Origin: Sulfurovum sp.
GTDB lineage: Bacteria; Campylobacterota; Campylobacteria; Campylobacterales; Sulfurovaceae
Reading direction: 5' to 3'
DNA length: 10,442 bases
Assembly: GCA_027046415.1 (NCBI GenBank)
Contig: JALTYW010000190.1
Coordinates: forward strand, 1-10,442
Shown: positions 1,901 through 4,177 of the stretch, in pieces
How the letters are laid out: every line of letters starts with the position of its first letter
Numbering within the stretch: the first letter of the stretch is position 1
Position numbers and translations under genes: made by a program
The notes under the pieces: generated by a model
Database searches by the model: none
What the model was told of the DNA's origin: nothing
The model's input: the letters and a program-made list of their open reading frames with translations, nothing else

Positions 1901-2037
1901 AGGCACTTGTAAAAACCCTAGTAATTCACAGTGGACAAGGGCATTTGGTTTCCAAGATTGTTGTAGTCTCCCCTTTATATTGTTAAATCTTAAAGGAAGC
2001 CGGATGTTGTGATGCCCTAGGGTCTTTAGAGGTGCTT
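1901..2037 (+). ncRNA. Candidate long rod-shaped structured RNA (leader or sRNA)
   Basis: Three nested helices close this region end to end. P1 pairs 1901-1921 with 2017-2037: 19 of 21 positions pair, with mismatches G1909-G2029 and A1914-C2024. P2 pairs 1926-1930 with 2008-2012. P3 pairs 1941-1953 with 1995-2007 and continues as 1954-1959 with 1986-1991 across a three-A bulge. About 43 pairs form in total. Residues 1931-1940 bulge out on the 5' side, and 1960-1985 form the apical loop. Six pairs (1902/2036, 1907/2031, 1941/2007, 1945/2003, 1946/2002, 1949/1999) are G-U on this strand and would be A-C on the other, which favours a + strand RNA. I match it to no riboswitch class that I know. 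It could be a cis-regulatory leader, a 6S-like rod RNA (short for that class), or a small inverted-repeat element. The fold was done by eye, without energy calculation. Confidence 0.5.
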
Positions 2038-2923: not shown

Positions 2924-4177
2924 ATGCAACACGATTTTGAATACTATAATACCCTGCTGGTACAGTGTGTCGGCGGGAAAGTCGGGCCCATCGCACCGAC
3001 CATCACCCCTTCTGCGGCATACGGATATGCCGATGCTCAGGAAGCCGAGGGAATCTTTTCAGGAGAGGTGAACAAGCCGCTCTATGCACGGGTAGGAAAC
3101 CCGACCAATGCCAAGCTCGAAGGCATTGTAGCAAAGATAGAGGGTGGCTTTGGTGCTATTGCAACCGCTTCGGGCATGGGAGCACTCTCCATGGTAACGA
3201 CTGCACTGCTTAAAAGCGGTGACGAGATACTCTGTGTGGGCGGATTTTTCGGCGGTACCTACACGCTGGTAAATGAAACCCTCAAACGGTTTGGCATCAG
3301 CAACAGCTTCTGCACCATCAACGACTTCGACTATATGGAGAAGAAACTCTCCGAAGGGGTCAAGATGGTACTGCTTGAGAGTGTGGGTAACCCGAGTCTC
3401 AGACTGCCTGATCTTAAAGCCATCGCCGACCTGTGCAACAAGTATGAAACCCTGATGGTCGTGGACAACACCGCCACACCGCTGCTGGTACGTCCGCTTG
3501 ACCTTGGTGCAGACATTGTGGTGCACTCAACGACCAAAAATATGTCCGGTAACTCGACCGCACTGGGGGGCATTGCTGTCTTTAGAGCGGTAAAAGAGGA
3601 GGGTGACAAACTCTTGAACGATAAGTATGCCGACGTGCACAAATTTGTCAAGAAAGCGGGCAAAAAAGCCTTCATTCCCATCTGTAAAAAACGTGCCATC
3701 CGTGATATGGGGATGACAGCAAACGCCTTTGGTTCTTTCCTGACCATGCTTGGGCTTGAGACACTGGCACTGCGTGTAGAACGCATCAACAACTCTGTCG
3801 CAAAAGTAGCGGCGATCCTTGAGGAGTCACTGCCAGAAGGCATTGAGGTCAACCACCCATCGTTGCCAAAAAGCGAAGACCATGCACGCTACCTCTCGGA
3901 CTTTTCCAACGGCTGCGGTCCATTGCTGACACTCGAGTGCGGTACACCCGAACGTGCCTTCAGGCTGCTTAACAACCTCAAACTTGCCACACTTACCGCC
4001 AACATTGGTGATAACCGTACTTTGGCACTCCATATGCAAAGTACCATCTACAGTGACTTTGACGAGGAGGCACGCCGATTCAACGGTGTGACAGAGGGGC
4101 TTATCCGTGTATCGATAGGGCTTGAAGACCCCGAAGCTATTGCGGAAGATTTCATGCAGGCAGCGGAAGCGGTTTAG
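2924..4177 (+). CDS. Cys/Met-metabolism PLP-dependent enzyme (O-acetylhomoserine sulfhydrylase or methionine gamma-lyase-like)
   Basis: A 417-residue cytoplasmic fold-type I PLP enzyme of the cystathionine gamma-synthase/lyase family, at the normal length. Family landmarks are the phosphate-binding Y54-A-R56, the GNPTN motif at 58-62, S83-G84-M85, the pyridine-binding D181 (VVDNT), and the Schiff-base lysine K205 in HSTTK. Two positions differ from the textbook pattern. The aromatic residue before GGT, usually Tyr (LYGGT), is F109. The segment after the lysine, usually KYxxGHS, reads K-N-M-S-G-N-S. Its exact reaction (sulfhydrylation, gamma-elimination or transsulfuration) therefore cannot be fixed. 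The SD, AGGAA at 2911-2915, overlaps the stop of the Rrf2 gene, which makes it the third gene of that operon. The stop codon overlaps that of the convergent sppA. Confidence 0.9.
   Translation: MQHDFEYYNTLLVQCVGGKVGPIAPTITPSAAYGYADAQEAEGIFSGEVNKPLYARVGNPTNAKLEGIVAKIEGGFGAIATASGMGALSMVTTALLKSGDEILCVGGFFGGTYTLVNETLKRFGISNSFCTINDFDYMEKKLSEGVKMVLLESVGNPSLRLPDLKAIADLCNKYETLMVVDNTATPLLVRPLDLGADIVVHSTTKNMSGNSTALGGIAVFRAVKEEGDKLLNDKYADVHKFVKKAGKKAFIPICKKRAIRDMGMTANAFGSFLTMLGLETLALRVERINNSVAKVAAILEESLPEGIEVNHPSLPKSEDHARYLSDFSNGCGPLLTLECGTPERAFRLLNNLKLATLTANIGDNRTLALHMQSTIYSDFDEEARRFNGVTEGLIRVSIGLEDPEAIAEDFMQAAEAV

Follow-up and report, generated by a model that had tools for sequence, protein, structure and literature searches.

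Positions 1901–2037 of the window (the whole analysed stretch of 10,442 nt from Sulfurovum sp., contig JALTYW010000190.1) almost certainly encode a conserved + strand RNA that folds into a long rod. As judged from sequence comparison, the rod is quite probably an exapted IS5-like MITE. It most likely forms the 5′ leader of a sulfur operon (DUF4395-rrf2-metY), since 42 of the 43 strong rods in the genus were located 50–157 nt 5′ of a same-strand DUF4395 domain, behind a nearly invariant promoter. No description of the rod RNA was found in the open-licence literature, and Rfam 15 holds no entry for it. The features of the locus are listed below.

659–1831: histidine-kinase gene, the 5′ neighbour of the intergenic region that holds the rod
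1837–1858, + strand: candidate operator and −35 element (AAATCCATTGATTTACTTGACA), conserved in homologues
1876–1881, + strand: −10 element TAAACT, spacer 17
1901–2037, + strand: rod RNA (fold z −5.03; covariation; above 60 bits in 43 of 78 genus genomes)
1901–1918, + strand: 5′ arm of the closing stem, MITE terminal-repeat-like (median 4 mismatches in 18 nt, 43 rods)
1931–1940, + strand: one-sided 5′ bulge (GGACAAGG) in the fold, core GGACAAGGG at 1933–1941
1960–1985, + strand: apical region in the fold, GUCUCCCC at 1966–1973, CU-rich with GUCUCC
2020–2037, + strand: 3′ arm of the closing stem, MITE terminal-repeat-like (median 3 mismatches in 18 nt, 43 rods)
2063–2518, + strand: DUF4395 gene (PF14340, 95.7 bits, above cut-off)
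2499–2912, + strand: rrf2-family regulator gene (PF02082 and TIGR00738, above cut-off)
2924–4177, + strand: metY-like PLP enzyme gene, O-acetylhomoserine sulfhydrylase-like (PF01053, above cut-off)

The RNA fold of 1901–2037 reached −50.3 kcal/mol, and none of 200 shuffled sequences folded equally well. It comprised 47 pairs (24 AU, 15 CG and 8 GU), five in the apical hairpin and 42 in the remainder, and the same structure was obtained when 1888–2062 was folded. The end-to-end rod proposed in the initial annotation was thereby reproduced, together with its 10-nt bulge and 26-nt apical region. Exactly six G-U wobble pairs, as had been counted there, lie in the rod proper (1902/2036, 1907/2031, 1941/2007, 1945/2003, 1946/2002 and 1949/1999); the two remaining ones are within the apical hairpin. 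The opposite strand of 1901–2037 folded to only −36.4 kcal/mol.

BLASTn retrieved relatives of the rod from 37 of the 78 Sulfurovum genomes. A covariance model (R1), built from 30 correctly oriented sequences (alignment A2), matched 52 of the 78 at E values up to 0.1 and exceeded 60 bits in 43. The single exception to the placement described above was G003, and the weaker matches in G026 and G040 were likewise found 50–157 nt 5′ of a same-strand DUF4395 domain. The count of neighbourhoods covered 48 places matched by R1, with reverse-strand and short symmetric places omitted. No strong copy occurred away from the operon in the 78 genomes.

Compensatory changes among the homologues support the structure. 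The covariation score of A2 was 0.291, compared with an average of 0.155 for shuffles (0 of 500 as high; the rows of A2 are related, so these figures are not probabilities) and a maximum of 0.106 for slid structures, where sliding preserves the relatedness, but the structure was derived from the same sequences. A2 was not fitted to the structure, and the covariation was also examined with RNAalifold. Standard pairs made up 96.9% of the cells, and 13 of the 28 pairs were changed on both sides, eight being invariant and uninformative. Moreover, each of 43 sequences (39 strong and 4 weak homologues) had a z below −2, with a mean of −6.0. The + strand was stabler than the − strand in 40 of these 43, the mean difference being 8.5 kcal/mol, and their folds held 261 GU pairs on the + strand vs 120 on the − strand. 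The strand bias, read in the initial annotation as a mark of selection on an RNA, is thus shared by the homologues. The rod is conserved as a + strand RNA, as proposed there; two points went beyond that proposal, namely its tie in cis to one operon and its likely ancestor, a DNA palindrome of the MITE type.

The two unpaired parts differ in persistence. GACAAG was present in all 30 rows of A2; the bulge core was missing in the weak homologues L121, L125, L127 and L138 and altered in L116. The apical loop motif was kept in the homologues, even in those without the bulge. A second model, R2, revealed a rod ahead of DUF4395 and rrf2 (both identified from translation) in G112, a genome from another genus of the same family. 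Its stem is GC-rich, unlike the others, with TGGACAAGGGCAT and ATTGTCTCCCC intact. As both motifs recur on a dissimilar stem in another genus, the GGACAAGG bulge and the GUCUCC loop are likely recognition elements, the role for which they had been put forward as candidates. Pairing between bulge and loop in a pseudoknot was as strong in 3022 of 5000 swaps among 39 sequences, in columns that hardly vary.

No further rod outside the genus was found in 97 other genomes of the family with R2, or in a sample of 398 genomes of the order with R1 and strict filters, a subset of the weak matches being inspected in each case. Viral contigs searched with the Rrf2 protein contained no relative. In contigs of GTDB genomes, relatives of DUF4395 defined 46 loci, of which 34 carried a strong rod and four a weak one (the four homologues without the bulge core). 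Six were rod-free; L126, L132, L133 and L137 retain the TACTTGAC promoter motif, which is altered in L136 and L144. L146 is cut off inside the DUF4395 gene. At L131, a long hairpin upstream of position 2022 occupies the place of the rod, with a dissimilar stem sequence and an AGTCTCC loop, the picture that drift or exchange of the stem around a retained loop would leave.

On a tree of Rrf2 and MetY with 47 rows, rods occur in both halves, and five rod-free rows require four changes, all forced by starred branches. L131 and the rod-bearing L128 group as sisters (support 99). The tree was made by a quick method with SH-aLRT support only and a midpoint root; L109, L118, L144 and L146 were omitted, L147, L132 and L131 fill less than half of the columns, and L132 forms a long branch. 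This pattern, together with the rod of G112, makes one early origin followed by repeated loss the simplest account, although it is not proof. Operons without a rod exist, so it can be dispensed with, which counts against the model proposed below.

The view of the rod as a probable exapted transposon is based on its closing stem, which matches the terminal repeat (GGGCACCTCTAAAAACCC) of an IS5-like MITE family common in Campylobacterales; the arms and the repeat are related, not identical. Most of the inspected weak model matches elsewhere were inverted repeats ending in or near GGGCACCTCTAAAAACCC. We rejected chance palindromes as an explanation of the weak symmetric matches in other genera and families, because those inspected were MITE-like, except the true rod of G112. 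With up to two mismatches, the repeat was present in 105 of the 398 order genomes. In the 23 genus genomes of this sample it gave 232 matches vs 4 for the reversed control, a few of them possibly rod arms. One genome (G001) had as many as 51 matches.

We compared the rods with 27 MITE units, i.e. 16 of the 20 stretches reached with the model (L222, L227, L231 and L232 were omitted) and 11 units chosen by pattern (L253–L263), eight of which are 264–267 bp long. L253, a unit of 1 kb, carries the gene for a 263-aa protein in which a DDE transposase domain was recognised (PF01609, above cut-off) and which is nearest in NCBIfam to IS5 (NF033581, 117.5 bits, below the cut-off of 140). Over 36 nt, the rod arms agreed with the unit arms at a median of 25 positions. 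Shuffled 3′ arms averaged 16.3 and did not exceed 23, and the four weak homologues (17–21 of 36) were within this shuffle range. Because the rod model had first led to the units, similarity in this core cannot by itself serve as an unbiased test. The 18 nt that follow in each arm, compared with the 11 pattern-chosen units and with the four weak homologues omitted, gave values of 10.4 and 10.3 vs 9.3, a weak signal in the same direction (0 of 100 shuffled sets were as high, but the rods are related).

The rod and the MITE family share the sequence of the closing stem and the shape of a long hairpin; in other respects they differ. The family is multicopy, with identical 4-nt flanks in 16 of the 27 units, whereas the rod of the window is flanked by AAAA (1897–1900) and CGTT (2038–2041), without a target-site duplication, and gave a single BLAST hit in its own genome (66% complete). 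We therefore read it as no longer mobile and as at most a MITE descendant, not a live member. GUCUCC was present in none of the 27 units and GGACAAG in one, hence both motifs are features of the leader copy.

The gene order DUF4395-rrf2-metY is conserved in most loci, unlike the two-component genes that precede it in the window. The nearest characterised family of the Rrf2 protein is CymR, with a score below the CymR cut-off, and the metY name follows the best NCBIfam match, TIGR01326, also below its cut-off. Cysteine metabolism is controlled by Rrf2-type regulators such as CymR. In G003, the rod is followed by a DUF4395 remnant and rrf2, with metY absent from the stretch examined. In G061 (a 37-bit match), the rod precedes a DUF4395 remnant similar to that of G003, then rrf2 and metY. 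As read from these sequences, the two genomes have lost DUF4395 at the locus and retained the rod with rrf2.

The promoter-like TTGACA noted ahead of the rod was located at 1853–1858 and is paired with the −10 element at a spacing shared by 41 of 42 homologues (17 nt). TTGAC was present in all 42 homologues with upstream DNA, and 13 of the 16 bases 5′ of it were identical in at least 38 of them. Rods start 5–34 nt past the −10 element, and in the window transcription would start near 1888. The block ATWGATTTACTTGACW had 10 exact matches in 7 of the 10 genomes searched, seven ahead of rods and three ahead of a second DUF4395 gene (L174 in G036, L178 in G001 and L186 in G077). These second operons thus carry an exact copy of the promoter block, and their leaders are rod-free. 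The next gene found after the second DUF4395 was cysK in G036 and G077 and the gene for phosphoadenylyl-sulfate reductase in G001, all above curated cut-offs. When up to two mismatches were allowed, matches of ATWGATTTACTTGACW and of its reversed control were about equally numerous in most of these 10 genomes, with more of the former in G028 (14 vs 3) and G010 (9 vs 2). The rod operon and the second DUF4395 operon probably belong to a shared sulfur regulon, and the conserved block may be the Rrf2 binding site. In several genomes, e.g. at L113:1984–2667, a longer DUF4395 gene lies in divergent orientation beyond the rod promoter.

In the model that we propose, an IS5-like MITE would have inserted between the promoter and DUF4395 before Sulfurovum and a sister genus diverged, and selection would then have kept the derived rod as a + strand RNA. 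Transcription would proceed from the conserved promoter, with a candidate operator common to the second DUF4395 operon, so that the rod opens the leader of the DUF4395-rrf2-metY mRNA. It is reasonably likely that this leader acts in cis. The rod would do so after transcription start, its long duplex serving as a platform for mRNA processing or protection of the RNase III type (cf. Correia elements), with the GGACAAGG bulge and the GUCUCC loop as conjectural docking sites read by a trans factor. We lean slightly towards this combined model of an exapted, transcribed cis platform with motifs read in trans. Processing or protection as the mechanism of the rod is a tentative suggestion, which draws on Correia elements of Neisseria; passages of PMC2649163 and PMC10969869 describe the action of RNase III on MITE hairpins in mRNA leaders. 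A long duplex so close to the 5′ end would naturally serve RNase III as a substrate or shield. A leader function that can do without contact to the ribosome-binding site is favoured by the cis linkage, the presumed 5′ place, the persistence with rrf2 after the loss of DUF4395 and the varying distance to the start codon.

The rod has its own conserved promoter, its apical loop is the most persistent motif, and MITE-derived sRNAs are described in Coxiella in parts of PMC5896051. These points would suit a trans-acting sRNA, freed by processing or leaky termination, whose CU-rich loop pairs with G-rich ribosome-binding sites of other mRNAs. In 13 of the 43 rods, five or more of the 8 nt that follow the stem are U (vs 2.8% of downstream 8-mers), hence termination is possible in some members. 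However, no terminator-like site was found in 1780–2200 of the window, the other 30 rods have no U-rich tail, and the confinement of strong copies to the operon also speaks against this reading, which we regard as unlikely. A riboswitch that regulates the operon, with bulge and loop together binding a sulfur metabolite (e.g. O-acetylhomoserine, cysteine, methionine or a derivative) in a pocket, would agree with the strict linkage to one sulfur operon, the conserved aptamer-like unpaired motifs in the leader of metabolic genes and the position close to the transcription start. It is made improbable by the missing expression platform: besides the terminator result, the accessibility of the SD had medians of 0.27 with the rod (41 sequences) vs 0.275 without it (40), which shows no occlusion. 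Own pairs of loop and SD among 43 sequences were matched in strength by 3356 of 5000 swaps (the start codon of L135 is implausible and that of L147 belongs to rrf2), and the distance from rod to start codon varies from 16 to 123 nt in 42 of 43. A bulge 19 pairs away from the loop would also be an unusual pocket. The SD results bear equally on the idea that the rod sequesters the ribosome-binding site, which, with attenuation through a leader peptide, we consider highly improbable. In the window, the loop CCUUUAU is complementary to AUAAAGG at the SD, and several rods hold short ORFs that open with NTG GAC AAG, some of them ending in TAT TGT stop, but frame and start differ among the 43 sequences and no leader ORF is shared.

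The notion of an inert relic, i.e. a functionless leftover transposon palindrome, could draw on the resemblance of the closing stem to the MITE repeat and on the four changes needed for the rod-free operons. It is contradicted by the covariation and the + strand asymmetry, and GUCUCC and GGACAAG, near-absent from the MITE units, were kept across two genera; we consider it very improbable. The least probable reading, with a negligible chance, is a 6S-like RNA that binds RNA polymerase, an alternative raised in the initial annotation and suggested by the rod shape and the one strong copy per genome. Passages of PMC3847290 place the 6S RNA of the phylum upstream of purD in Campylobacter jejuni and Helicobacter pylori. 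Its family, RF01069, was detected in 70 of the 78 genus genomes and coexists with the rod in 40 of the 43 that have a strong one. At purD loci it scored 68–87 bits and was upstream of purD in all three scanned (10 fetched). It had no match in the incomplete genome of the window. RF00013 was found in none of the 78 genomes, with 5 of 14 controls positive. Neither family matches the rod, which precedes DUF4395 or rrf2, not purD, and has a one-sided bulge, not a central bubble. The purD RNA is comparable in being a structured RNA with its own promoter before a biosynthetic gene, but differs in locus, sequence and structure. In Rfam 15, the window had no match at the gathering score, and 1832–2070 gave one irrelevant match at E ≤ 10 and none to 6S, in line with the initial view of an undescribed structured RNA.

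Among known systems, the Correia elements (CREE/NEMIS) of Neisseria resemble the rod: according to passages of PMC2649163 and PMC10969869, a MITE-type hairpin stands there between a native promoter and a gene, is transcribed with the gene and is a target of RNase III. They are multicopy, whereas the rod is a single element, fixed and covarying, that has its own loop motifs and is shared by the genus and at least one genome of another genus; action of RNase III on the rod is conjectural. The QMITE1 and QMITE2 sRNAs of Coxiella burnetii likewise arise from MITE copies, but in that one species each family has, according to PMC5896051, about 50 copies, compared with one copy of the rod per genome, at one operon.

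The origins of regulatory RNAs are rarely visible, and here relatives of the apparent parent MITE can be set beside the derived leader RNA within single genomes, where operons that share the promoter but have no rod provide natural controls. The captured MITE may even have become a dedicated sensor or effector, either as a new riboswitch or as an RNA recognised by its own trans factor, a reading that we regard as rather unlikely; if true, the birth of a regulatory RNA family from a transposon would be traceable from mobile relatives to a fixed covarying element. The rod also points to control by RNA in addition to that by Rrf2 in a probable sulfur regulon of Campylobacterota.

We must also note some irregularities at single loci. 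The histidine kinase at L109:1591–2732 and metY at L140:3945–4935 each match as two pieces, which indicates a frameshift or an assembly error. At L110, L130 and L145, several tens of extra bases separate the rod from the start codon (97, 65 and 123 nt, respectively), and the extra sequence between rod and DUF4395 in L110 and L145 is repeat-like in appearance.
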